64,000 bases of DNA from an uncultured Rhodospirillales bacterium (lineage in GTDB: Bacteria > Pseudomonadota > Alphaproteobacteria > ATCC43930 > CGMCC-115725): positions 1 through 64,000 of the forward strand of contig CAIJOA010000004.1 of assembly GCA_903822185.1 (NCBI GenBank). Direction: 5' to 3'. This document shows positions 3,703 through 56,557 of the stretch, piece by piece (within the stretch, counting starts at the first letter, position 1; each line of letters begins with the position of its first letter). The translations under genes were made by a program, and so were the position numbers. Below the pieces are notes generated by a model. The model had not been told where the DNA came from and did no database searches. It saw nothing but the letters and a program-made list of their open reading frames with translations.

Positions 3703-3780
3703 CGTCATTGCGAGGAGCGTAGCGACGAAGCAATCCAGTCTGTGGACGCACTGGATTGCCGCGCTTCGCTCGCAATGACG
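3703..3780. repeat. Palindromic intergenic repeat, family A (GTCATTGCGAG)
   Basis: Inverted repeat with outer arms CGTCATTGCGAG and CTCGCAATGACG and inner arms GCAATCCAGT and ACTGGATTGC. Related copies lie at 43930-44008 and 56479-56557. It resembles the REP-like palindromes common in alphaproteobacterial genomes, and sits between pyrE and the LigB-like gene. Confidence 0.9.
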
Positions 3781-39773: not shown

Positions 39774-41843
39774 ATGAGCGATCAATCGAAACTGAGGCTT
39801 GCTTCCGATATCGGCGGCACCTTCACCGACGTTGCCGTCTTCGACGAAGCCAGCGGCAAGCTGACCTTCGGCAAGGCGCTATCGACGCCGCAACGCCTCG
39901 TCGAAGGCATCAATAACGGCGTCGCCAAGACCGGCGCCGATTACAAGGATGCGGGCCTGTTCCTGCATGGCTCGACGATCGCCATCAACACGATCCTCGA
40001 GCGTAAGGGCGCCAAGACCGCGCTGATCATCACCAAGGGCTTCCGCGACATCTACGAAATCGGCCGCATCAATCGGCCTGACTCGTACAATCTGTTCTTC
40101 CAGAAGCATGAACCGCTGGTCGAGCGTGCGCTGCGCTTTGAAGTGAACGAGCGCGTCCTGGCCGACGGCGAAGTCGAAAAGCCGCTGGACGACAAGGAGA
40201 TCGAAGCGCTGGGCGATCATCTCTCCAGCATCGGTATGGAAGCGGTCGCGATCCTGTTCCTCCACTGCTATCGCAATGCCGATCACGAGAAGCGCGCCAA
40301 AGAGATTCTGCAAAAGAAACATCCGAACCTCTTCGTCTCGGCCAGCCACGAACTGTCGCAGGAATATCGCGAGTTCGAACGCTGCTCGACGGCGGTGGCC
40401 AACGCTTATGTCGGCCCGAAGGTCGATCGCTATATCGGCGAAATCGACGAGCATCTGCGCGGCGCGGGCTTCAAGGGCTCGTTCCTGATCGTGCAATCGA
40501 CCGGCGGTCTCTATGCCGCCGATCAGGCGCGGCAATATTGCATCCGCATGCTGGAATCAGGCCCGGCGGCCGGCGTCATCGGTACGCGCACGCTGTGCCA
40601 CACGCTGGGTCTCAAGAACGCCATCGCCTTCGACATGGGCGGCACCACGGCGAAGGCCGGCGTCATTCATGACGGCGAGCCGCTGACCACCGGTTCGGCG
40701 CTACTTGGCGGTTATGAAAAGGCGCTGCCGGTTCAGATCGCCATGATGGACATCTTCGAAGTCGGCACCGGCGGCGGTTCGATCGCCAAGGTCGAAGACG
40801 GCATGCTGCGTGTCGGCCCGCAAAGCGCCGGCGCGTCACCGGGCCCCGTCTGCTACGGCCTCGGCGGCACCGAGCCGACCGTGACCGATGCCAATCTCGT
40901 CCTCGGTCGCCTGAGCGCCGACCGCTTCCTCGGCGGCGAAATGAAGCTCGATGTCGAAGGCGCGAAGAAGGCCCTCCTCAAGAACATCGGCACGCCGCTG
41001 GGCATGGACGCGATCGCTTCGGCGGACGGCATCCTGCGCATCGCCATCACCGCCATGTCCTATGCGGTGAAGGGCGTCACGACCGAACGCGGTCTCGATG
41101 TCGGTGACTATGTGCTGGCCGCTTACGGTGGCGCGGGTCCGCTGCATGCGGTCGAAGTCGCGCGCGAACTCGGTATGCGCCGGGTCATTATCCCGACCGC
41201 GCCGGGCGTGTTCTCGGCCTACGGCATGCTGTTCTCGGATCTGCGGTACGACTTCGTCCGCACCTGGTTCACGCGCCTCGACGATGCGTCGTTCGATGCG
41301 ATCGAGGCCGTCTATAAGGAACTGGAAGACGAAGGCCGCGCCGCCATCGACGCCGCGAAGGTGAAGCCGGAAGAAATCGCGATCCGCCGCGCCGTCGATA
41401 TGCGTTATGTCGGTCAGGAACATGCCGTCACCGTCGATGTGCCGATGGAGGTCTTCCAATCGAAAGACCGCACCGCGATGAAGAAGCATTTCGACGAACA
41501 GCACGAAATCCGTTACGGCACCAACGCCCCGGCTGAACGCGCCGAAATTGTCAGCCTGCGCACCGCGGTCAGCGGCATCATGCTGAAGCCGCCGCAGGAA
41601 AAGATCGCCGCCGGCGGCGCCGATCCGAAAGCCGCCTTCAACGGCAACCGCTCGGTCTATTACGAGGCCGTCGGCTTCGTCGAAACCCCGACCTATACCC
41701 GCGATAAATTGCTCGCGGGCAATAAGGTCACCGGCCCGGCGCTGATCGAGGAACATGCCTCGACCACCGTTCTCGCGCCGGACGATCAGCTTACCGTCAA
41801 TGCTTACGGCCATCTCGAGATCGCCGTCGCAGGGAGAAAATAA
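39774..41843 (+). CDS. Hydantoinase/oxoprolinase subunit A (HyuA-like)
   Basis: 689 residues. N-terminal ATP-binding segment LASDIGGTFTDVAVFDEASG (about 9-28) and the second nucleotide motif IAFDMGGTTAKAGV (about 284-297) are the ASKHA-type marks of HyuA and acetone carboxylase beta subunits. These ATP-dependent enzymes open lactam or hydantoin rings or carboxylate ketones. Translation of hyuB starts 2 bases after its stop, so the two subunits are made together. Codon use matches the neighbours. The exact substrate (N-methylhydantoin, oxoproline, acetone or other) is not readable. Confidence 0.92.
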   Translation: MSDQSKLRLASDIGGTFTDVAVFDEASGKLTFGKALSTPQRLVEGINNGVAKTGADYKDAGLFLHGSTIAINTILERKGAKTALIITKGFRDIYEIGRINRPDSYNLFFQKHEPLVERALRFEVNERVLADGEVEKPLDDKEIEALGDHLSSIGMEAVAILFLHCYRNADHEKRAKEILQKKHPNLFVSASHELSQEYREFERCSTAVANAYVGPKVDRYIGEIDEHLRGAGFKGSFLIVQSTGGLYAADQARQYCIRMLESGPAAGVIGTRTLCHTLGLKNAIAFDMGGTTAKAGVIHDGEPLTTGSALLGGYEKALPVQIAMMDIFEVGTGGGSIAKVEDGMLRVGPQSAGASPGPVCYGLGGTEPTVTDANLVLGRLSADRFLGGEMKLDVEGAKKALLKNIGTPLGMDAIASADGILRIAITAMSYAVKGVTTERGLDVGDYVLAAYGGAGPLHAVEVARELGMRRVIIPTAPGVFSAYGMLFSDLRYDFVRTWFTRLDDASFDAIEAVYKELEDEGRAAIDAAKVKPEEIAIRRAVDMRYVGQEHAVTVDVPMEVFQSKDRTAMKKHFDEQHEIRYGTNAPAERAEIVSLRTAVSGIMLKPPQEKIAAGGADPKAAFNGNRSVYYEAVGFVETPTYTRDKLLAGNKVTGPALIEEHASTTVLAPDDQLTVNAYGHLEIAVAGRK

Positions 41844-41845
41844 CG

Positions 41846-43618
41846 ATGGCCACCAGCACCACCGCCCCTAAGAAGAAGGCCGATCCGGTCGTCACCGAGA
41901 TCATCCGCAACGGCGTCATCGCCGTGACGGAAGAGATGAAGACGAACCTGATGCGGACCGCCTACAATACGATCATCTATGAAGCGCTCGACTTCACGAC
42001 GGGTCTTTTCACCGCCGAAGGCGAGACGATCTCGATCGGTATCGGTCTGCCGATGTTCATCCGCGGCATGTCGGAAACGGTGAAGTCGAAGATCCGTCAT
42101 TTCGGCATCGACAACATCGTCGCCGGCGACATCCTCATCACCAACGATTCCTATACGACCGGCAGCCATCTCAACCACGTCACGCTGACCATGCCGATCT
42201 TCCATGAGGGCACGCTGGCGGCGTTCTCGTGCTGCATGGCGCATTGGATCGATATCGGCGGTGTCCTCGGCGGCGTCACCACCGACATCTATTCCGAAGG
42301 CTTGCAGATTCCATTCCTGAAGCTGCACCGCGCCGGCGTGGTCAATCAGGACCTGGTCGATTTCATCCGCATGAACGTGCGCGTCCCTACCCGTGCCTTG
42401 GGCGATCTGCGCGCCCAGGTGACGGCGGTGAAGACGGGCGAGCGCCGCTTCTTCCAGTTGTTGGAACGCTATGGCCGCGAGCCGGTTCTGGCCGCCGTTG
42501 AAGCGATCATGAATCACTCGGAAGTCGGCGCCCGCGCCCGCACGCTGACGATCCCCGATGGCGTCTATGAAGCCGAAAGCTTCATGGATGACGACGGTAT
42601 CTCGATCGGCAAGCGCGTACCGATCCGCGTCAAGGTAACGGTGAAGGGCGAAGAGATGACGGTCGATCTGACCGACGTCTCGAACCAGGTTCAAGGCTTC
42701 TACAACTCGGGCATCACCACGGGCTATGCCTGCGCCCAGGTCGCGTATAAGTGCCTGACCTCGCCGACCGATTATCCGATCAATGACGGCTCGTTCCGCA
42801 GCCTCAACGTCATCGTGCCGTCGGGCCGCGTCATCAGCGCCGTCCGTCCCGCGCCGATGCGCTGGTGGATGACCTTCCCGATGACCATCGTCGATACGAT
42901 CTTCAAGGCGATGGCGAAGGCCATTCCCGATCGCACGATCGCCGGCCATCATGCCGATCTGATCGCGGCCGGTTTCCATGGCGTCAATCCGAAGACCAAG
43001 GAATTCTACTTCGGCAACTTCGGTCCGCTGGGCGGCGGCTGGGGTGCGAAGATGACCGAGGACGGCGTCTCGGCCACGGTCTGCATCAATGACGGCGACA
43101 CCCACAACAGCGCCAGCGAAATGACCGAGGTGAAGACGCCCTGCGTCGTCGAATCGCTGCGCCTCGTCGAGGACAGCGGCGGCGCCGGCCAGTATCGCGG
43201 CGGCCTGGGGGTGGAGCGTATCGTGCGCGCGCGTGCCCCGTGCGTCTTCTCCAGCCAAATCGAGCGCGCCCATTGCAAGCCGTGGGGCCTCGAAGGCGGC
43301 GACGAAGCGACCGGCAATTCCATCGCGCTGCGCGTCGATGGCAAATGGAAGGCCGACTTCCCAAACGCCAAGATGGTGATGGCGACGCTCAAAGTCGGCG
43401 ACGCCTATCTGCTGCGCTCGGGCGGCGGCGGCGGTTACGGTCCCGCGTGGGAACGGCCGGCGGAAAAGGTCGCCGAGGACGTGCGTCAGGGTTACGTCAC
43501 GCCGGAAGCGGCGGCGGACTCTTATGGAGTTGTGATCGATCCGAAGAGCTTCGCGGTCGATAAGGCCGCGACCGACAAGAAGCGGGCGGCGCTCAAAGCG
43601 GCGCGCGCCACGGCTTAA
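41846..43618 (+). CDS. Hydantoinase/oxoprolinase subunit B (HyuB-like)
   Basis: 590 residues. Family marks: MKTNLMRTAYNTIIYEALDF near 32-51, the conserved DILITNDSYTTGSHLNHVTL near 94-113 and the Gly-rich LGGGWGAKMTEDG (about 394-406). The C-terminus is rich in Gly (RSGGGGGYGPAWERP) before a helical tail. It has an AGGGAGA site inside the end of hyuA. Forms the second subunit with HyuA. Confidence 0.92.
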   Translation: MATSTTAPKKKADPVVTEIIRNGVIAVTEEMKTNLMRTAYNTIIYEALDFTTGLFTAEGETISIGIGLPMFIRGMSETVKSKIRHFGIDNIVAGDILITNDSYTTGSHLNHVTLTMPIFHEGTLAAFSCCMAHWIDIGGVLGGVTTDIYSEGLQIPFLKLHRAGVVNQDLVDFIRMNVRVPTRALGDLRAQVTAVKTGERRFFQLLERYGREPVLAAVEAIMNHSEVGARARTLTIPDGVYEAESFMDDDGISIGKRVPIRVKVTVKGEEMTVDLTDVSNQVQGFYNSGITTGYACAQVAYKCLTSPTDYPINDGSFRSLNVIVPSGRVISAVRPAPMRWWMTFPMTIVDTIFKAMAKAIPDRTIAGHHADLIAAGFHGVNPKTKEFYFGNFGPLGGGWGAKMTEDGVSATVCINDGDTHNSASEMTEVKTPCVVESLRLVEDSGGAGQYRGGLGVERIVRARAPCVFSSQIERAHCKPWGLEGGDEATGNSIALRVDGKWKADFPNAKMVMATLKVGDAYLLRSGGGGGYGPAWERPAEKVAEDVRQGYVTPEAAADSYGVVIDPKSFAVDKAATDKKRAALKAARATA

Positions 43619-43929: not shown

Positions 43930-44008
43930 CGTCATTGCGAGCGGAGCGAAGCAATCCAGTGCGTCCGCAGACTGGATTGCTTCGTCGCTGACGCTCCTCG
44001 CAATGACG
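43930..44008. repeat. Palindromic intergenic repeat, family A
   Basis: CGTCATTGCGAG ... GCAATCCAGT / ACTGGATTGC ... CGCAATGACG, close to the copy at 56479. It fills much of the gap between the small CPCC gene and the end of the amidohydrolase gene. Confidence 0.9.
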
Positions 44009-44018
44009 CGAGGGGGAC

Positions 44019-45023
44019 TTAAACCAGCTTCAGCTTCTTCAAACGCGGGAACAGCTTCAGTGCGTTCATCGTGTCGATCTCGGCGCGGATGGCGCGGGGC
44101 AGTTTGACCGCGCCCATCTTCTGCGCCGCGATGACGGTCGGCAGGAAAGGATAATCGCTGCCGAACATGACCTGGCTCGACGGGACGATTTCGAGCAGAG
44201 CGCCGATCGCGCCGTTGTTCCAGCCGCTGGCCGTGTCGAAATACATTTTCTGCAATTCGCGATGCATGCCGCGCGGGAAGTTCTTGCCGATCGGCTTGTG
44301 ATCCATCTCCTCGATGCGGCCGATGATCATCGGCGCCGTGCCGCCGTTATGGGCGAAGATGAAGCGGATCTTCGGGAACTTCGTCGTCGTGCCGCTGGTG
44401 ATCAGGCTGACGATCGTGCGGGTCGTCTCGAACGGAAATTCAAGCGTCTGCATGGAGAGGCCCGGCACGGTGTTGGTGCAGCAGGGCGTGAAGGTCGGAT
44501 GGACATAGACGATTGCCTTGCGGCGGTTCAGCTCTTCCATCACCGGATGGAAAGACTCATCGCCTAGCCATTTGCCGTCGTAATTGGACAGAAGCCCGAT
44601 GCCGTCCGTCTTGAGGTTATCGAGCGCGTTCTCGATCAGCTTGAGGCTGCCTTTGGTGTCGGGCAGGGGAATCGGGGCGAAGACGCCGAACCGGGTCGGG
44701 AAGGCTTGGACCGCCTCCATTGCCGAGTCCGTCCATTCCTGCGCGAGTTTGCGGCCCAATTCGACATCGCCGTACCAGACGCCGGGAGTCGAGGTCGAGG
44801 CGAAGGCAAAGGCGATATTCGCCTTGTCCATCTCCTGAATCGACAATTCCGGCGTCCAGCCCAGCATGTTGGTGTTGCCGTGCATGACGGACGTCCGCTT
44901 CATCTCGCCTTCCATGAAAGCGCGGGGCAGGAAGTGATGATGCAGATCGATGCGCAACGGGAAGGACGGCTTCTTCGCCGCCGTCTTGCCCTTGGCTGTT
45001 ACGCTTTTCTTTTTCGCCGCCAT
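44019..45023 (-). CDS. Amidohydrolase 2/ACMSD-like metal-dependent hydrolase, cytoplasmic paralogue
   Basis: 334 residues. Metal motifs: IDLHHHFLP (about 24-32), VYVHPTF (about 173-179), FIFAHNGG (about 220-227) and GSDYPF (about 285-290). Members of this family hydrolyse or decarboxylate aromatic and related acids. Unlike its neighbour at 45058 it has no signal peptide but a lysine-rich N-terminus (KKKSVTAKGKTAAKKP). The two proteins are clear paralogues, alike in most segments (for example STSTPGVW, TSGTTTKFPKIRFIFAH). Last gene of the operon from 49721. RBS CGGAGA. Confidence 0.9.
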   Translation of the reverse strand: MAAKKKSVTAKGKTAAKKPSFPLRIDLHHHFLPRAFMEGEMKRTSVMHGNTNMLGWTPELSIQEMDKANIAFAFASTSTPGVWYGDVELGRKLAQEWTDSAMEAVQAFPTRFGVFAPIPLPDTKGSLKLIENALDNLKTDGIGLLSNYDGKWLGDESFHPVMEELNRRKAIVYVHPTFTPCCTNTVPGLSMQTLEFPFETTRTIVSLITSGTTTKFPKIRFIFAHNGGTAPMIIGRIEEMDHKPIGKNFPRGMHRELQKMYFDTASGWNNGAIGALLEIVPSSQVMFGSDYPFLPTVIAAQKMGAVKLPRAIRAEIDTMNALKLFPRLKKLKLV

Positions 45024-45057
45024 GTCAGTCTCCGGATGTGCTGTGTCTCGCCCTCTT

Positions 45058-46158
45058 TTAGAGCTTTGCGATACGCGGCAGCAACCGGATAGCGTTGTCG
45101 CGTTCGATCGCGGCTTTCACTTTGGCCGACGGATGGCCGGCCTCGAACTCGGCGACGGCTTTCTGAACCATGACATTGGTCGGCGGCGGGCCGGCCAAGG
45201 GATAGTCGCTACCAAGCAAAACTTGCGACAGCGGGACGATCTTCAACAGCGCCGGCACCGTCACTTCGCCGTTCATGCTGGCGGTGTCGTAATAGAGCTT
45301 CGACAGTTCCGCGTGCATACCGCCGGGGAACTTGTCCTTGAACACCGGCATCCGGTTCATGCCCTCGATGCGGCCATAGATCGCCGACAGCGCGCCGCCG
45401 CCATGGGCGAAGATGAAGCGGATGTTGGGGAAACGGGTCGTCGTGCCGCTGGTGATCAGGCTGACGATGGTGCGCGTGGTGTCGAACGGGAATTCGAGGT
45501 TCGGCGCGACCAGGCCCGTCACCATGTTGGTGGTGCAGCAGGGCGAGAAGGTCGGGTGGACATAAACGATCGCGTTGCGGCGATTGAGCTCTTCCATCAC
45601 CGGGGTGAAGGCCGGATCGCCCAGCCACTTGCCCTGATAGTTCGAGAGGAAATTGATGCCGTCGGCCTTCAGCGTGCCGATGGCATAGTCGATTTCCTTG
45701 AGCGAACCTTCGGTGTCCGGCAGTGGGATCGGCGCGAAGAAACCAAAGCGCGTCGGGTGGTCATGGACGGTCTGTCCGGCGGCTTCGTTCCATTGCCGGG
45801 CGAGCTTGCGGCTCTGTTCGACATCGCCGGTCCAAACGCCCGGGGTCGAGATCGAGGCGACGGCGAAATCGACGCCAGCCTTGTCGCAGGCTTCGATGTC
45901 GCCTTCGGCTGTCCAGGAGAACATCGCCGAATTGCCGTGGTCCGAATGCTGCCGCTCGTACTCGTCTTTCATGTATTGCTGCGGCAGGAAATGATGATGC
46001 ATGTCGATGCGGCGCAGCTTGCGTACCGCGGCCTTTGTCGCCGCCGCGACCGGCGTGATCAGGCCGGTCGAGAAGGTGGCCGCGCCGGCTGCCGCTGCGA
46101 CACCGACGATGAAATCACGGCGCGAGGACGCGCCAATGCTGAGATCGTTCTTCTTCAC
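45058..46158 (-). CDS. Amidohydrolase 2/ACMSD-like hydrolase with Tat signal
   Basis: 366 residues from the GTG at 46158, which has a GGGGAGA site 8 bases upstream; an ATG at 46182 lacks one and is less likely. A twin-arginine signal SSRRDFIVGVAAAAGAA (about 11-27) predicts folded export to the periplasm. Catalytic motifs: IDMHHHFLP, VYVHPTF, FIFAHGGG and GSDYPL. It lies 51 bases after the ATPase gene. The pairing of an exported and a cytoplasmic paralogue suggests one acts before uptake and one after. Confidence 0.9.
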   Translation of the reverse strand: MKKNDLSIGASSRRDFIVGVAAAAGAATFSTGLITPVAAATKAAVRKLRRIDMHHHFLPQQYMKDEYERQHSDHGNSAMFSWTAEGDIEACDKAGVDFAVASISTPGVWTGDVEQSRKLARQWNEAAGQTVHDHPTRFGFFAPIPLPDTEGSLKEIDYAIGTLKADGINFLSNYQGKWLGDPAFTPVMEELNRRNAIVYVHPTFSPCCTTNMVTGLVAPNLEFPFDTTRTIVSLITSGTTTRFPNIRFIFAHGGGALSAIYGRIEGMNRMPVFKDKFPGGMHAELSKLYYDTASMNGEVTVPALLKIVPLSQVLLGSDYPLAGPPPTNVMVQKAVAEFEAGHPSAKVKAAIERDNAIRLLPRIAKL

Positions 46159-46209
46159 GTGCTTTCTCCCCTTAAGCGGCATCCCCCGGATGCCGGTATT
46201 TGTTTTGCG

Positions 46210-46995
46210 TTAGGCGGCGGGCATCTGGTGAAGTTGCTGCTTCAGCATTTTCCAGATGTCGTTGCGGTACTGAACGAATTGCGGGCTCGTCTTGATCGCC
46301 TCGTCGTCCTGCCAGCGCGGACGCGGCAGGTCGATCTTCAGATCGGCGATGATCCGGCCCGGCGAGGTGCCGAACATGATGATGCGATCCGACAGGAACA
46401 CGGCTTCATCGACGCTGTGGGTGACGAAGACGACGGTCTTGCGGTCGTTGTCCCACAGTTTCATCAGCTCGACCTGCATCACTTCACGGATTTGCGGGTC
46501 GAGCGCGCCGAACGGCTCGTCCATGAACAGATAGGACGGGCCGACAGCAAGCGCGCGGGCGAGGCCGACGCGTTGCTTCATGCCGCCCGACAATTGATGC
46601 GGAAAGAAATCGCCGAAGCGGTCGAGCCCGACCTGCGTCAGCGCGCGATTGGCGGTCTTGGTGCGCTCGGCGCTGGGAACGCCCTGGCATTCCAGCGGGA
46701 ACTCCACATTGGCCCGCGTCGTGCGCCAGGGCAGCAGGTTGAATTCCTGGAACACCATCGCGCGATCGGGGGCGGGGCCGGTGACTTTCTTGCCGTCGAT
46801 GCGGATCTCGCCACCGGTGGGTATGACCAGCCCGTTGATGATGCGCAGCAGGGTCGTCTTGCCACAGCCCGACGGCCCGAGGAACGAGACGAAAGTACCG
46901 CTCTCGATCGTCAGATTGACGTCGGACAAAGCGCGGAAAAACGTCGTGCCGTCGCGGCCGGGATAACCATGCGAGACATTGGAAACTTCGATCAT
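46210..46995 (-). CDS. ABC transporter ATPase, SsuB/TauB/NrtD type
   Basis: 261 residues. Walker A GPSGCGKTTLL (about 40-50), signature LSGGMKQRVGLARALA (about 138-153), Walker B YLFMDEPFGALD (about 158-169) and the H-loop VFVTHSVDEAVFLSDR (about 191-206) are intact. It belongs to the importer group for nitrate, sulfonates and aromatic acids. Gap to the permease gene is 10 bases. RBS GAGGA. Confidence 0.94.
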   Translation of the reverse strand: MIEVSNVSHGYPGRDGTTFFRALSDVNLTIESGTFVSFLGPSGCGKTTLLRIINGLVIPTGGEIRIDGKKVTGPAPDRAMVFQEFNLLPWRTTRANVEFPLECQGVPSAERTKTANRALTQVGLDRFGDFFPHQLSGGMKQRVGLARALAVGPSYLFMDEPFGALDPQIREVMQVELMKLWDNDRKTVVFVTHSVDEAVFLSDRIIMFGTSPGRIIADLKIDLPRPRWQDDEAIKTSPQFVQYRNDIWKMLKQQLHQMPAA

Positions 46996-47005
46996 CGTCT
47001 CGTCC

Positions 47006-47851
47006 TCACGAACCTTGTACGTGTTGCCAGGGCGCCAGCTTCTTTTCGAGCCAGCGCAGGAAGGCGTTCAGGATCACGCCCGCCGCCGCCAGCACGACGA
47101 CGCCGACGAAGACCTGCGCGGTGTCGTAAAGACCGCCTGCCTGGAAGATGAGATAGCCGAGGCCCTTGGTCGCGGCATAAATCTCGGCGACGACGACCAT
47201 CACGAGGGTGCGGCCGACGGCGAGGCGCATGCCGGCGATGATGTAGGGAAGGGCCGAGGGCAGCACGATCTTCATCATGATCTGCCGTTCGTTCGCCATG
47301 AACGAACGCGCGGTTTCGATCAGCTTACGATCGACCTGCGACACGCCGGCTTCGGTATTCACCACCATGATGATGAACGAGCCGAGGAAGACGAGCGCGA
47401 CCTTCGAGGAAATGCCGATGCCCAGCCAGATGATCAGCAGCGGCAGGAACGCGACCTGCGGCGCCGCATTGAGCGCGGTGACGAACGGTTCCAATGTCGC
47501 GCGGATAGTCAGCGACCGACCCATCAGGAGGCCCATCGGCACGCCGACGATGACCGACAGCGCAAAGCCGATGCCCGCGATGTTGGCGCTGGCGGCGACA
47601 TGCGGCCAGATGCTGCCGTCGCGGATCATGTCGAACAGCTTTTCGATGATCAGCGAGGGGCTGGATGCGAACAGCGGATCGAGATAGCCGAGCCGGGACG
47701 AAATTTCCCAAGCGGCCAGGAAGACCGTCAGCCCGCTGATACGCAGCAGATTGACGAAGCCGGATTTAAGCCACCAGCGCTCGAACGCGCTTGGGCCTTG
47801 AGGCGCCAGAGGATCTTTCAGTGGCAGCGACGATGCGGTGCGGTCACTCAC
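47006..47851 (-). CDS. ABC transporter permease, SsuC/TauC type
   Basis: 281 residues from a GTG at 47851 that overlaps the stop of the binding-protein gene (GTGA); a TTG at 47866 is an alternative. About six membrane segments with the binding-protein-dependent transport signature EPFVTALNAAPQVAFLPLLI (about 128-147). It couples with the ATPase at 46210 and the binding protein at 47848. Confidence 0.92.
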   Translation of the reverse strand: MSDRTASSLPLKDPLAPQGPSAFERWWLKSGFVNLLRISGLTVFLAAWEISSRLGYLDPLFASSPSLIIEKLFDMIRDGSIWPHVAASANIAGIGFALSVIVGVPMGLLMGRSLTIRATLEPFVTALNAAPQVAFLPLLIIWLGIGISSKVALVFLGSFIIMVVNTEAGVSQVDRKLIETARSFMANERQIMMKIVLPSALPYIIAGMRLAVGRTLVMVVVAEIYAATKGLGYLIFQAGGLYDTAQVFVGVVVLAAAGVILNAFLRWLEKKLAPWQHVQGS

Positions 47852-48852
47852 GGGTTTGGTTTCCAACCTTTGGCTGCGAGTTCAGTGTTCACTTTTTCAG
47901 CAAAGCTGAAATCGAAGACGCCTGCCGGCGCCATGATCTTGTCCTTCGGCATATCCATCATCGCACCGCGCAAGGTCACTTCGTTTATCTGCACGTCGTG
48001 GGCGATCGTGCCGTTGACGGCCATCAGGCTGCGCAGGATATCATATTCGCCGCCGACTTCTTCCGGCTTCGCCTTCATATAAGCGGCATAACGCTCGATC
48101 GATTCTTCGCGGTTGTTGCGGGCGAAGATCATGCCCTTGCGCGTGGCGCGGACGAAACGCTCGACCTCGTCGGGATGGTTTTTGATCAGATCGTCCGAGG
48201 TGGCGAGGCCGTTGAAGGTCGAACGGACTTCCTGGCGCAGATCGGTCAGCAGCTTGCCCTTATCGAGCCCGCCGGCATTGCGCAGGATTTCGACATCGCC
48301 CGGATGCAGCAAGGCGGCCGGCAGCGCGCCGCTTTTGACCATCGCCATACGCGAACCGATGGCCGAGCCCATCGGGGTGAAGGCGACATAATCGGACGGC
48401 AGATTGTGCTTCAGGAGGTAATAGCGGATACCGATTTCGCCGGTATCGCCGCGGCTGACGACACCGATCTGCTGGCCTTTAAGGTCGTCGAACGTCTTGA
48501 TCTCGGGCTTGGTGGACCAGACCTGCCAATCGGGCCGGTCCTCGCCGACGAGCAACACCTTCAGCTTCGCGCCTTTGATGATCGCGCTGATGGCCGAAGA
48601 GCCCGAGGTGCTGAATTGCAGATCGCCCGAGACGAGCGCTGCGGTGGCCGGGCCGCCGCCGGTCTCGATGACTTCCATGTCGAAGCCTTCGTCTTTGTAG
48701 TAGCCCTTCTGGATCGCGGTGAAGAAATAGATGTAGGAGCCGTTGAGGTTGGGATAGCTGACTTTGACGTGCTCGGCGCGGGCTGGCGCTGCCGGTGAAA
48801 GAACCGTGGCCAAGGCTGCCGCGGCGACGGCTGCACGGAAAAATGTCTTCAT
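47848..48852 (-). CDS. ABC transporter substrate-binding protein, NMT1/SsuA-like
   Basis: 334 residues from the ATG at 48852, which overlaps the stop of the hydrolase gene (ATGA) and has GAGGGTGG upstream. Signal peptide TFFRAAVAAAALATVLSPAA, cleavage after ARA near residue 26. Mature pattern: HVKVSYPNLNGSYIYFFTAI, then FDMEVIETGGGPATAALVSG and LQFSTSGSSAISAII, as in the NMT1/sulfonate/aromatic-acid group. Its ligand is probably the substrate or product of the hydrolases in the same operon. Confidence 0.92.
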   Translation of the reverse strand: MKTFFRAAVAAAALATVLSPAAPARAEHVKVSYPNLNGSYIYFFTAIQKGYYKDEGFDMEVIETGGGPATAALVSGDLQFSTSGSSAISAIIKGAKLKVLLVGEDRPDWQVWSTKPEIKTFDDLKGQQIGVVSRGDTGEIGIRYYLLKHNLPSDYVAFTPMGSAIGSRMAMVKSGALPAALLHPGDVEILRNAGGLDKGKLLTDLRQEVRSTFNGLATSDDLIKNHPDEVERFVRATRKGMIFARNNREESIERYAAYMKAKPEEVGGEYDILRSLMAVNGTIAHDVQINEVTLRGAMMDMPKDKIMAPAGVFDFSFAEKVNTELAAKGWKPNP

Positions 48853-49721
48853 GATCCACCCTCGATAAATTTTCTGAGCCGCGCTTCGAAGGGAGCGGCC
48901 TGCTCCCATTGGACCCAGTGACCGGCGTCCGGGACGATGTCGCAATAAGTAGCCGGTCGGATGGTGCGAAGCACGCCGAATTTCTGCTCGATATAAGGAG
49001 CGCAGGTGCTGTCCTTCTCGCCCCAGATCGCCCCCAGCCGGGCCGTCACCTTGGGCAGAACCTCGATCAGCGTCTCGGTAAAGGCGATCGGGCGGCTGTC
49101 GAGGCGGGAGCGGCGGGTATTCTCGTTCTGGAGGAAGACTGCCAGGTCATCGACCCGGCCGGCATCGCCGAACATCAGCGTGACGAGGTTCTGTCGCTGG
49201 ATTCCGGCGATTTGCGTGGGTGTCATGCCCGGTTCGACCCGCGCCAGGGTCAGGCTCGGCCGCGGCTGGCCCAGTCCGGCGGCGCCGATGGTCAGGAAAC
49301 AGTCGATTCGGTCGCCCATTTGCGCGGCGACATGGCCGCCGAGGGCCGATCCGAACGAAAAACCGGCCAAGGCGATCCGCGCGGGTGGTGGGGCGACCTG
49401 ATTGAGGCCCTGGACCAGGATCGCGGCCAGCGCTTCGGCGGTTTTCGGTTCCGGCGGGGTCGCGGAATCGCCGCATCCCGGCAAATCCGGCACGATGACC
49501 ATATAGTCGGCCGACAGAGATTGGACGTTGCGCAGCCAATGAGTCCAGGAACCATAGCCGCCATGCAGCAAAACCAGCGGCTTGCCGGCGCCCCAAACGC
49601 GCCAAACCATCTGCCCGTCGCCGCACGGCGTCTCGATTCGGCGGGACAGCCGTTCGATTTGGGCGACGATGTCGGCGAGCGCCGTCGTTTCCGACGGGCT
49701 GGATGCCTGATCGGACGGCAT
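48849..49721 (-). CDS. Alpha/beta hydrolase, first gene of the ABC-amidohydrolase operon
   Basis: 290 residues from the ATG at 49721 (an upstream TTG at 49733 is possible). Oxyanion segment LLHGGYGSWTHW, nucleophile GFSFGSALGG, acid GEKDSTCAPY and His in PDAGHWVQWEQA are all in place. There is no signal peptide. The stop overlaps the start of the binding-protein gene, so the hydrolase is translationally coupled to an importer, which suggests it acts on the imported compound (an ester, lactone or ring-cleavage product). Confidence 0.9.
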   Translation of the reverse strand: MPSDQASSPSETTALADIVAQIERLSRRIETPCGDGQMVWRVWGAGKPLVLLHGGYGSWTHWLRNVQSLSADYMVIVPDLPGCGDSATPPEPKTAEALAAILVQGLNQVAPPPARIALAGFSFGSALGGHVAAQMGDRIDCFLTIGAAGLGQPRPSLTLARVEPGMTPTQIAGIQRQNLVTLMFGDAGRVDDLAVFLQNENTRRSRLDSRPIAFTETLIEVLPKVTARLGAIWGEKDSTCAPYIEQKFGVLRTIRPATYCDIVPDAGHWVQWEQAAPFEARLRKFIEGGS

Positions 49722-52279: not shown

Positions 52280-53638
52280 TTGTCTTACGATTTTCCCAGC
52301 GATTTTTTCGAGCCTCCAAAAGTACGCCCCGCCGAATGGCCGGACCATCCGGATGTGCGTAGAGCGGTTGAATGGTTCCGCTCGTTCATGAGCAAGCAAC
52401 AGTGGGAACTGCGCAGGGAGGCTGCCGCAAGGAGATTGTACGACGCTTCGCTGGCACGGGTAGGGCCTGATGACAAAGGGCGTCTCTTCGACGAGACAGA
52501 TACTTTTGGTTGGTACTTGTTTCTAGCTGAGGCGTTCGTTGATCATATCGGCAACTACGAGCCGACGTTTGGCTCACGCGTTGTGCCAGTATTTGCTGCG
52601 ATTGGGCGCAATCTAGCCTTACTCAAGACTATTGCCGGGGTGGCTGAACGGATGCAGCGTATGATCGATCAGGATCGTTTACAACCCAATGGAGCCTTAT
52701 TCGAGGCGCTCGTTGCAATTTGTTATGCACGTCAGGGCGGGCAAGTAAAATTTGTACCCGCTGAACCAGGGCGTGCTCGAACCCACGATATGGACGTTAC
52801 CATAAATGGGCTCGACTATGCCGTTGAGTGCAAACGCATGGAGACTGGCGACTATGGAGAAGGTGAGCGCCGCCGCATGAGAGAGCTTTGGCGGCCCTGT
52901 TCGGCAGAGCTTTGTAGGATTGAGCGAAGTACGTTTGGTAATGTCGACTTCGCAGTGCCTCTTAACGAAATTCCTGAAGATTATATGATTCAGAAGGTGG
53001 GTGCCTGGCTGCGCTCAGGTAAAAAACATTTTAGCTGGAATGAAAAAGAGAGTTCAGGATGGATCAGAGATTTAGATCTCCGTCCCCTACAAGCCGAACT
53101 CGAAAATAGTTGTGTGATGCATGGCTCGTCTCGATTGGTAGAACTTTTGACGGGAGAATACATCAAGAATAGGAGCTTTCTTCAGTCGCTCAGAATGAAG
53201 TTATGGGATAATCCAAGATATATGTATGAATGTGATCTTGCGGTCATTTTTCGCTGGCAGTCTTTATCAGACCGCGCCACGAGCGCTAAGGCTCGTGACG
53301 TTTTTCATAAATTGGTTGAAGCAAATGACCAACTTCCGGAAGACAGGCGTTCGATTATTCATATTGGCTTCGAGGCGGTCGAGGGCGATGAAGTGGAAAA
53401 GGTGCGATATGCCAAGATTGTAGCTACCACAGAGAAGTTTGACCCTAAGGGAAAGCGACTAGAATACGTGTACTGTCACTATTTTGTGCCCGAAAGTCCG
53501 CCGGAACAAAGTTGGGCATTCGATGAAACCACGCAAATGAGGGATATAAGACCCGAGGGGCCACCGCCGCTCGCGGCGCAGTTTTTGGTATCTCCTGATG
53601 ATGTGGAAGAGCGGCAAGGTCCACACTGGGGTCCGTGA
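52280..53638 (+). CDS. PD-(D/E)XK nuclease-like hypothetical protein in an AT-rich patch
   Basis: 452 residues, no family recognised by name. The TTG start at 52280 has AGGGAGA upstream. A nuclease-like core is suggested at about 140-187: Glu142 (FEALVAICYARQGG), Asp172 (THDMDVTINGLDY) and Glu183-Cys-Lys185 (YAVECKRM), the D...ExK pattern of PD-(D/E)XK folds. The rest is rich in helices and aromatic residues. Base composition and codon use are clearly lower in GC than the neighbours, a sign of recent transfer. It lies 112 bases after tRNA-Leu. No methyltransferase, second subunit or integrase is seen. A stand-alone defence or restriction-type nuclease is possible, not shown. Confidence 0.7.
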   Translation: MSYDFPSDFFEPPKVRPAEWPDHPDVRRAVEWFRSFMSKQQWELRREAAARRLYDASLARVGPDDKGRLFDETDTFGWYLFLAEAFVDHIGNYEPTFGSRVVPVFAAIGRNLALLKTIAGVAERMQRMIDQDRLQPNGALFEALVAICYARQGGQVKFVPAEPGRARTHDMDVTINGLDYAVECKRMETGDYGEGERRRMRELWRPCSAELCRIERSTFGNVDFAVPLNEIPEDYMIQKVGAWLRSGKKHFSWNEKESSGWIRDLDLRPLQAELENSCVMHGSSRLVELLTGEYIKNRSFLQSLRMKLWDNPRYMYECDLAVIFRWQSLSDRATSAKARDVFHKLVEANDQLPEDRRSIIHIGFEAVEGDEVEKVRYAKIVATTEKFDPKGKRLEYVYCHYFVPESPPEQSWAFDETTQMRDIRPEGPPPLAAQFLVSPDDVEERQGPHWGP

Positions 53639-53866
53639 ACGAATCTTTTTCTGTTCGGCTTTATCAACTTTTAAACGGTCACTCAAGCGCATGGATACTT
53701 ACCAAGATACAGATTTGCGTTGAGATTATAGTTGGTCGAGTTGTGTAGAAAATATTGCAAACGTCAATTAACTCTAATAACAGTTGGAATGCTAAGCTTT
53801 CAAAATTGATATAAAGCACTCGCTGAAAAATGTGACGAAGAAGTAGGTGTTATGGGAGGGGATGGA

Positions 53867-54919
53867 GTGGTAAAGCCGAAACCAATTTATGTTTTGCTCT
53901 GCGGATTCGTGGTCATATTGTTGGCCATCGCCACTTCTGCCCATGCGCAGGACGCCGTCGAGAAATTCTACAAAGGCCGTGACCTCAAGCTCTCGATCGG
54001 CTCGACGCCGGGCGGCGGCTATGACGGGTATGGGCGGCTTGTCGCGCGCTATATGACGAAATACATCCCCGGCAATCCGAATATCGTGCCGGTGAATATG
54101 GCCGGGGCGGGCAGCAATCGGTTGGCGACTTATATCTATTCGGTCGCGCCGAAGGATGGGACCGAGTTTGCGATCGTCTTTCCCGGCGCCATTCTCGATC
54201 CGCTGATCGGGACCGAGCATCTCCAGCACGATCCCAGCAAGCTGATCTATATGGGTAGCGCGAATGTCGAGGTGTTCACCTGCTTCGTGCGCTCGGACGC
54301 GCCGGTGCAAAGCTATATGGACATCACCAAGACGCAAATCCTCGTCGCCTCGACGGCGGCGGGTGGTTCGACGCGCGATATTCCGGCGCTCGAGAATCAT
54401 CTGCTCGGCACCAAGTTCAAAGTGGTCGCCGGTTATCCCGGCTCGCGCGAGATCAATCTCGCGATCGAGCAGGGCGAGGTGCAGGGTGCCTGCGGCCTCG
54501 GCTGGTCCAGCATCAAGACGCAGAGTTCGGCGCTGCTCAACAGCGGCAAGATCAAGCTCTTGGCGCAGGAAAGCAACAAGGGCGATCCCGAACTCGACGC
54601 TAAGGGCGTGCCGCTGACCTACAGCTTCGCCAAGACCGACGAGGCGCGCGAAATCATGGAACTGGTCTTCAGCCAGGAAATCTTCGGCCGGCCCTTCATT
54701 ATGCCGCCGGGCGTACCCGACGATCGCGTCGCCGCGCTACGAAAGGCCTTCATGGATACGATGAAGGACAAGGACTTCCTCGCCGACGCCAAGACCCAGG
54801 GTCTCGACATCGATCCGATCTCGGGTGAGGAGGTTCAGGCACTAGTGAAGAAGGTCTATGCCTTCCCGAAGGATATCGTCGAGAAGGCGAAGAAGGCGAT
54901 CGTTTATGAAGCGCCTTGA
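53867..54919 (+). CDS. Tripartite tricarboxylate transporter substrate-binding protein (TctC/Bug family)
   Basis: 350 residues from the GTG at 53867, which has GGAGGG 6 bases upstream; the ATG at 53852 has a weaker site. Signal peptide YVLLCGFVVILLAIATSAHA with cleavage after AHA. The Bug pattern is seen in LKLSIGSTPGGGYDGYGRLV, PGNPNIVPVNMAGAGS and DPSKLIYMGSANVEVFTCFV. No TctA/TctB is adjacent; the fused permease is at the other end of the window. The 228 bases before it are AT-rich, show no gene and probably hold its promoter. Confidence 0.9.
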   Translation: MVKPKPIYVLLCGFVVILLAIATSAHAQDAVEKFYKGRDLKLSIGSTPGGGYDGYGRLVARYMTKYIPGNPNIVPVNMAGAGSNRLATYIYSVAPKDGTEFAIVFPGAILDPLIGTEHLQHDPSKLIYMGSANVEVFTCFVRSDAPVQSYMDITKTQILVASTAAGGSTRDIPALENHLLGTKFKVVAGYPGSREINLAIEQGEVQGACGLGWSSIKTQSSALLNSGKIKLLAQESNKGDPELDAKGVPLTYSFAKTDEAREIMELVFSQEIFGRPFIMPPGVPDDRVAALRKAFMDTMKDKDFLADAKTQGLDIDPISGEEVQALVKKVYAFPKDIVEKAKKAIVYEAP

Positions 54920-56478: not shown

Positions 56479-56557
56479 CGTCATTGCGAGCGCAGCGAAG
56501 CAATCCAGTGCGCGGAAAGACTGGATTGCTTCGTCGCTGACGCTTCTCGCAATGACG
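56479..56557. repeat. Palindromic intergenic repeat, family A
   Basis: CGTCATTGCGAGCGCAGCGA ... TCCAGT / ACTGGATTGC ... CGCAATGACG between two convergent genes. Confidence 0.9.

Follow-up and report, generated by a model that had tools for sequence, protein, structure and literature searches.

ACMSD, a metal enzyme of Pfam family PF04909 (Amidohydro_2), is reported to bind zinc through His9, His11, His177 and Asp294, with His228, Arg51 and Arg239 important in catalysis (PMC11650718). The same account describes Arg51 as essential for ACMS binding and the enzyme as active in the form of a dimer, in which Arg239 is supplied by the neighbouring subunit (PMC11650718). Other members of the family are the 5-carboxyvanillate, gamma-resorcylate and iso-orotate decarboxylases, LigY and LigJ (a C-C hydrolase and a hydratase of lignin catabolism), and the AibH1H2-type oxygenases. 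In the last of these, two PF04909 proteins work together; the available accounts describe a dinuclear site of three carboxylates and three histidines in one subunit and a Rieske partner encoded nearby (PMC10811679, PMC10401708). Export dependent on twin-arginine translocation (Tat) has been described for an amidohydrolase_3 protein, which belongs to another Pfam family (PMC4899797). Here, we describe a locus on the minus strand of a 64,000-nucleotide stretch (the window) of contig CAIJOA010000004.1 from an uncultured Rhodospirillales bacterium, in which two PF04909 paralogues, named AH1 and AH2, are encoded together with an NMT1-type ATP-binding cassette (ABC) importer and an alpha/beta hydrolase. 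AH1 has a Tat signal and AH2 has none. In the cases known to us, ACMSD-type enzymes are cytoplasmic. We read the locus as a catabolic operon whose ACMSD-type metal enzyme, once duplicated, would be split across the inner membrane, with a flow from outside to inside, and give this reading a probability of roughly 0.45.

Gene layout and export signals

The six genes run from about 49721 to 44019 in the order hydrolase, NMT1 binding protein, permease, ATPase, AH1 and AH2. The alpha/beta hydrolase, the operon's first gene (48849..49721), matched Pfam Abhydrolase_6 with 68 bits. It is followed by the NMT1-type periplasmic binding protein (47848..48852; PF09084, 75 bits), the ABC permease, which has a GTG start (47006..47851; PF00528, BPD_transp_1, 102 bits), and the ABC ATPase (46210..46995; PF00005, ABC_tran, 110 bits), which together make a complete NMT1/SsuA-type importer set. 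AH1 (45058..46158, its start placed by comparison) and AH2 (44019..45023) both passed the PF04909 gathering score of 26.4 bits, with 109.4 and 87.6 bits, respectively. Over the shared domain their identity is 60%, and in the multiple alignment it is 56%. When the sequence was read directly, the hydrolase TGA and the binding-protein ATG were found to overlap as ATGA at 48852-48849, and the binding-protein TGA (47850-47848) and the permease GTG (47851-47849) as GTGA. The permease and the ATPase are separated by 10 nt, and AH1 and AH2 by 34 nt. Pfam and this reading agree with the initial annotation, which had given six minus-strand genes with these overlaps and families, and the genes are predicted to be co-transcribed. 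A sigma-70 promoter scan found none, with 1.2 expected by chance.

The same six genes, in the same order and with both overlaps (as ATGA) and the flanking genes, were found in G016, the only other genome of the genus among those examined. Identity between the window and G016 was 72% for AH1, 68% for AH2, 78% for the binding protein and 73% for the hydrolase. A candidate regulatory hairpin between the ATPase and AH1 (46177-46195) was rejected; its folding z was 0.56, and the G016 spacer shows none by eye.

Confinement of the Tat signal to the upstream paralogue, also claimed in the initial annotation, was confirmed with the Tat model TIGR01409. AH1 scored 20.7 bits, above the cut-off of 16.7, and AH2 gave no match. 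The same asymmetry is present in G016, where AH1 has a Tat signal (TRREFV) and AH2 is Lys-rich and unsignalled. The Lys-rich N-terminus of AH2 is likewise seen in both genomes, as MAAKKKSVTAKGKTAAKK in the window genome and MAAKKKKATPKAKKKAVRAK in the G016 orthologue. TatC was found in the window genome (E 5e-72) and also in G016. AH1 is predicted to be exported by Tat, and AH2 would stay in the cytoplasm. One detail was revised: AH1 had been started at ATG 46182, and GTG 46158 is probably the true start because the ribosome-binding-like AAGGGGAG just before this GTG resembles the start region of the G016 orthologue, in which AGGGGAAGCACC directly precedes the ATG. The Tat signal is whole with either start, and AH1 residues are numbered here from ATG 46182.

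The AlphaFold model of the binding protein (pLDDT 90) has a thiamine-precursor/sulfonate-binding fold, with matches to 3qsl (Z 26.4), ThiY (Z 24.6) and SsuA (Z 23.4); this modelled fold does not fix the ligand. The importer shares with SsuABC, TauABC and ThiXYZ the set of binding protein, permease and ATPase, and with ThiY and SsuA the binding-protein fold (Z 23-25), but its ATPase (263 bits compared to the SaoA equivalog cut-off of 360) and permease (161 compared to 342 for TauC) are both below the equivalog cut-offs of the models that they match best. A putative Ser-Asp-His triad was seen by eye in the alpha/beta hydrolase. Assignment to BphD, HsaD or PcaD was rejected at 42.4, 46.8 and 42.5 bits against NCBIfam cut-offs of 462, 400 and 256, respectively. 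The protein is a generic alpha/beta hydrolase only and no named meta-cleavage enzyme.

Active sites and divergence of the two amidohydrolases

The family alignment contained 66 rows, from which amidohydrolase open reading frames (ORFs) below 300 bits and one duplicate locus (L102 = L053) were left out. G016 contributed 26 rows from fetched loci, compared to 31 G016 matches in the search. H62, H64, H209, R271 and D326 are invariant (66/66 rows), and H260 is present in 61/66. In both paralogues, H62, H64, H209 and D326 are the aligned equivalents of the ACMSD zinc ligands, H260 is that of His228, and R271 aligns with Arg239, the arginine that in ACMSD comes across from the adjacent subunit. AH1 and AH2 both keep this complete mononuclear ACMSD set, which may set them apart from the dinuclear AibH1H2-type oxygenases. 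No Rieske family was among the Pfam matches of the six genes, the rest of the window not having been scanned for it. C215, six residues past the third metal His (H209), is found in 65 of the 66 rows; the alignments shown for ACMSD, LigW and 2f6k are without Cys at this position.

The initial annotation called both amidohydrolases ACMSD-like. As a description of the metal site this is right for both; as an assignment to ACMSD itself it was dropped, since identity is about 23-24% and Arg51 lies within a 22-residue ACMSD insert that the profile alignment leaves unmatched. The Tat signal of AH1 is a further difference. Between H64 and W90, Arg never exceeds 15 of the 66 rows in any one column. R77 is present in all six rows of an alignment of AH1, AH2, the Tat protein L050 and L039, an AH1 orthologue (69-70% identical) from a metagenome-assembled genome titled Candidatus Eremiobacterota (G782), and might be a stand-in for Arg51.

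The predicted structure of AH1 (pLDDT 84) was closest to 2f6k (Z 39.2, root-mean-square deviation 2.2, 303 aligned), followed by human and bacterial ACMSD (Z 35-37) and the 5-carboxyvanillate, gamma-resorcylate and iso-orotate decarboxylases (Z 34-35). With ACMSD and these decarboxylases, the likeness extends from the fold (Z 34-37) to the HxH-H-D metal site, the catalytic His and the arginine. LigY and LigJ share the superfamily and the fold at a lower structural score (Z 29-31, about 30), and AibH1H2 was among the fold matches with Z 29.

Two side observations concern other family members. Tyr occupies the H260 position in five Tat-signalled amidohydrolases of L062, L150 and L134; in ACMSD, H228Y is reported to abolish tautomerase activity (PMC11650718). 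In L145 (4692-9813, minus strand), the N-terminal HxH motif was not found by pattern in four amidohydrolase genes in a row, two of which were confirmed as PF04909; they are possibly oxygenase-type relatives.

The paralogues differ beside the metal Asp motif. The loop after D326 has 12 residues, seven above the usual five, in 2/66 rows, both of them AH1, and in L039. The insert, LAGPPPT, is thus present in AH1, its G016 orthologue and L039, in all of which HGGGAL also replaces the HxGGTxP of most rows. AH2 has the common 5-residue loop, and five other rows have eight residues (a 3-residue extension). As AH1 has the long loop and AH2 does not, a difference in substrate between the paralogues is probable. 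Together with the conserved N-terminal asymmetry, the insert speaks for two different reactions, and divergence of the pair in compartment signal as well as in active site favours two different steps.

The conserved arginine also bears on another explanation, in which AH1 and AH2 form a heteromer that is exported on the Tat signal of AH1, with AH2 as a hitchhiker, so that both act in the periplasm. Both paralogues have the arginine that aligns with Arg239, the residue contributed by the neighbouring subunit in the ACMSD dimer (PMC11650718). The PF04909 pair AibH1H2, present in the fold list, is described as a heterotetramer (PMC10401708), and HybOC and PaoABC are documented cases of hitchhiker export in the account consulted (PMC4273604). 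However, when G782 was searched, the next amidohydrolase after L039 was 48% identical to AH1, with no AH2-like copy seen, and the best match to the binding protein was 34%, so neither AH2 nor this importer seems to be required for an AH1-type enzyme to occur. G782, whose record is assigned to another phylum, is also rich in amidohydrolase and NMT1 genes, and L039 may be there by transfer or mis-binning. In addition, no Tat partner was recognised in the locus of the L061 amidohydrolase pair, and the Lys-rich start of AH2 is present in both species. We consider joint export improbable.

Trees were built on the mature domain, a quick one with 75 rows and a careful one with 25. AH2 of the two species was sister to AH1 plus L039 (support 100/97), the next neighbour was L050 (98/96), and mostly Tat rows surround this clade. 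An approximately unbiased test rejected AH1, L039 and L050 together without AH2 (p 0.009), a group that was named after the tree was seen. Tat/non-Tat changes on the 75-row tree numbered 10, whereas 1000 shuffles averaged 23.7 and never went below 16; Tat-tagged rows make up 22/66 of the family alignment. Because AH2 is nested inside a Tat-bearing clade, the simplest reading is that AH2 lost its Tat signal, although the tree cannot prove direction. A more specific history, which we regard as rather unlikely, is that a tandem duplication split the enzyme in a complementary way. AH1 would have kept Tat and gained its loop, AH2 would have kept the usual loop and swapped Tat for a Lys-rich tail, and one importer would serve two steps through a membrane-crossing intermediate.

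Distribution and related gene arrangements

Among 43 genomes of the order, the binding protein was matched at E <=1e-50 in two, both of this genus, AH1 at 1e-40 in 12 and the hydrolase at 1e-15 in 30. A class scan of 385 genomes gave two with AH1 (1e-70) and two with the binding protein (1e-45), the window genome being one of each pair, and a phylum scan of 398 genomes gave nine with AH1 at 1e-60, window genome included. About 4-5 candidates per genome were scored in the class and phylum scans. ORFs in the neighbourhood scans run stop to stop, and gaps there are rough. Among the papers listed by literature searches aimed at such an operon, none described a matching system, which is weak evidence of absence.

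Outside the window genome, the phylum-scan matches comprised nine loci in eight genomes. Five of these loci belong to genus g275, all with a Tat-like start. L190, L191 and L194 of this genus combine a Tat-signalled amidohydrolase with an FAA-hydrolase-like gene, from which an NMT1 binding protein, an ATPase and permeases are divergently oriented. Pfam was run on the L190 binding protein and on L191, where it confirmed the parts and added a GntR/FCD regulator and a Cyclase gene; L194 was called by hidden Markov models built in this analysis. This set was not found in the other two g275 loci (L192, L193) or in L195-L198 from other genera. A Tat-signalled amidohydrolase beside an NMT1 importer thus recurs in g275, with other hydrolases, which counts in favour of a pathway divided between compartments.

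Amidohydrolase pairs without Tat also lie beside NMT1 binding proteins. L139 (G016:C2:134000-153000) has two amidohydrolases, an NMT1 binding protein, an ATPase and two permeases on one strand, and in L057 and L140 an NMT1 binding protein is divergent from two unsignalled amidohydrolase genes. Import followed by cytoplasmic amidohydrolase action would be enough in those cases. The window operon might then work in a similar manner, with the importer bringing in a substrate for AH2 and the hydrolase while periplasmic AH1 does a side job, such as clearing an analogue or running the same reaction outside, and no sequential pathway would exist. This arrangement appears quite unlikely to us. The AH1-specific insert and altered HxGG region suggest a kept, distinct job, and the g275 loci again place Tat-signalled amidohydrolases beside NMT1 importers.

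Further loci combine parts of the operon. L062 and L150 have two Tat-signalled amidohydrolase genes followed by an NMT1 binding protein. G042 has a hydantoinase-B-like ORF, a Tat-signalled amidohydrolase and a homologue of the hydrolase in a row, the amidohydrolase ORF ending at 2107 and the hydrolase match starting from 2113. The hydrolase homologues in 19 other loci (L103-L121) had no shared neighbourhood that was recognised with the reference set from the window genes; G042 did. L151 is a second mixed array, with one Tat and two unsignalled copies. In L199 of G420, which contains binding-protein relatives, no amidohydrolase was seen. Plasmid relatives with 35-44% identity (3/249 records opened) came from Bosea, Paraburkholderia and Agrobacterium, and their neighbours were VOC, FAA-hydrolase, aldehyde dehydrogenase, acyl-CoA dehydrogenase or isochorismatase genes. 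These neighbourhoods point to a role in the breakdown of small organic acids, perhaps aromatic ones.

The window genome (G000, 4.27 Mb) has 58 PF04909 matches, 57 of them above the cut-off, and at least 53 NMT1 matches (252 candidates; 53 were scored and all matched). Such crowding raises the question of whether the genes are chance neighbours with no single pathway meaning and AH2 a drifting duplicate. We hold this to be very unlikely, as the overlapping gene order is kept in two species at 68-78% identity (AH1, AH2, binding protein, hydrolase). Among the fetched loci, 16/81 amidohydrolase genes have an ABC neighbour on their own strand no more than 400 bp away, be it an ATPase, a permease or an NMT1 binding protein, compared to 5/93 genes of ten other families (Fisher p 0.005), a control biased by loci centred on amidohydrolases, by pairs counted twice and by an ATPase label that is not NMT1-specific. 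At first look, the NMT1 candidates numbered 252 in the window genome and 281 in G016, with G042 next at 121. At least 30 PF04909 matches were found in 14/39 genomes of the family, with about 46 candidates scored per genome. Richness in PF04909 is not special to this genus; the NMT1 candidate numbers stand out. Tandem arrays of NMT1-type binding proteins were also observed, with six genes in L200 (G000:C11:660000-675000) and five in L201 (G016:C7:648000-665000). No permease or ATPase was recognised in the stretches fetched, and Pfam was run on one array.

By Pfam, a hydantoinase A (PF01968/PF05378) and B (PF02538) pair lies convergent with the operon at 39774-43618, a GntR/FCD regulator precedes these genes, and a COQ7 gene is upstream of the operon. 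Hydantoinase-like genes are also present in amidohydrolase loci L066, L159, L102, L148, L162 and L171. A nested palindromic repeat element was found just past AH2 (43930-44008) and also near 3726-3763 and 56496-56533; its arm, CGAAGCAATCCAGT, has seven matches in the window (five exact) compared to 0.59 expected, with up to two mismatches allowed. Two further window ORFs, 52280-53638 (452 aa) and 53852-54919 (355 aa), had no Pfam match at 0.001. The second presumably resembles a tripartite-tricarboxylate binding protein.

The proposed pathway and its meaning

In the favoured, compartmentalised reading, AH1 would fold and acquire its metal in the cytoplasm and would then be exported by Tat. In the periplasm, it would act on a small organic acid through a metal-bound water and the conserved arginine, which is inter-subunit in ACMSD, and the reaction could be a decarboxylation, a hydration or a C-C/ester hydrolysis. 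The NMT1-type importer would take up the product of AH1 or a closely related acid, and the alpha/beta hydrolase and AH2 would process it inside. The metal and the reaction type are predictions. A pathway of this kind was proposed in the initial annotation, and the layout, the importer type, the restriction of the Tat signal to AH1, the recurrence of this asymmetry in G016 and the presence of TatC in both genomes all agree with it; the direction of flow and the location of AH2 are parts that we only infer.

Several points weigh against this reading. The Tat/non-Tat split is not the rule among tandem amidohydrolase pairs, as both members have Tat in L062, L149 and L150 and both are unsignalled in L057, L061, L139 and L140. 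The six-gene order, whose recurrence elsewhere had been at issue from the start, is present in both examined genomes of the genus and was not seen outside it in the loci examined from the order, class (385) and phylum (398) scans. The many NMT1 and amidohydrolase genes in these genomes make a bare neighbourhood weak evidence. We hold the reading at slightly less than even odds.

If true, the operon would be a clear case of a paralogue pair changing compartment after duplication. It also draws attention to ACMSD-type enzymes that are often Tat-tagged, as about a third of the rows here (22/66) are. Finally, it may offer a handle on a lineage that is known here from genomes only and that has dozens of such enzymes and NMT1 importers.

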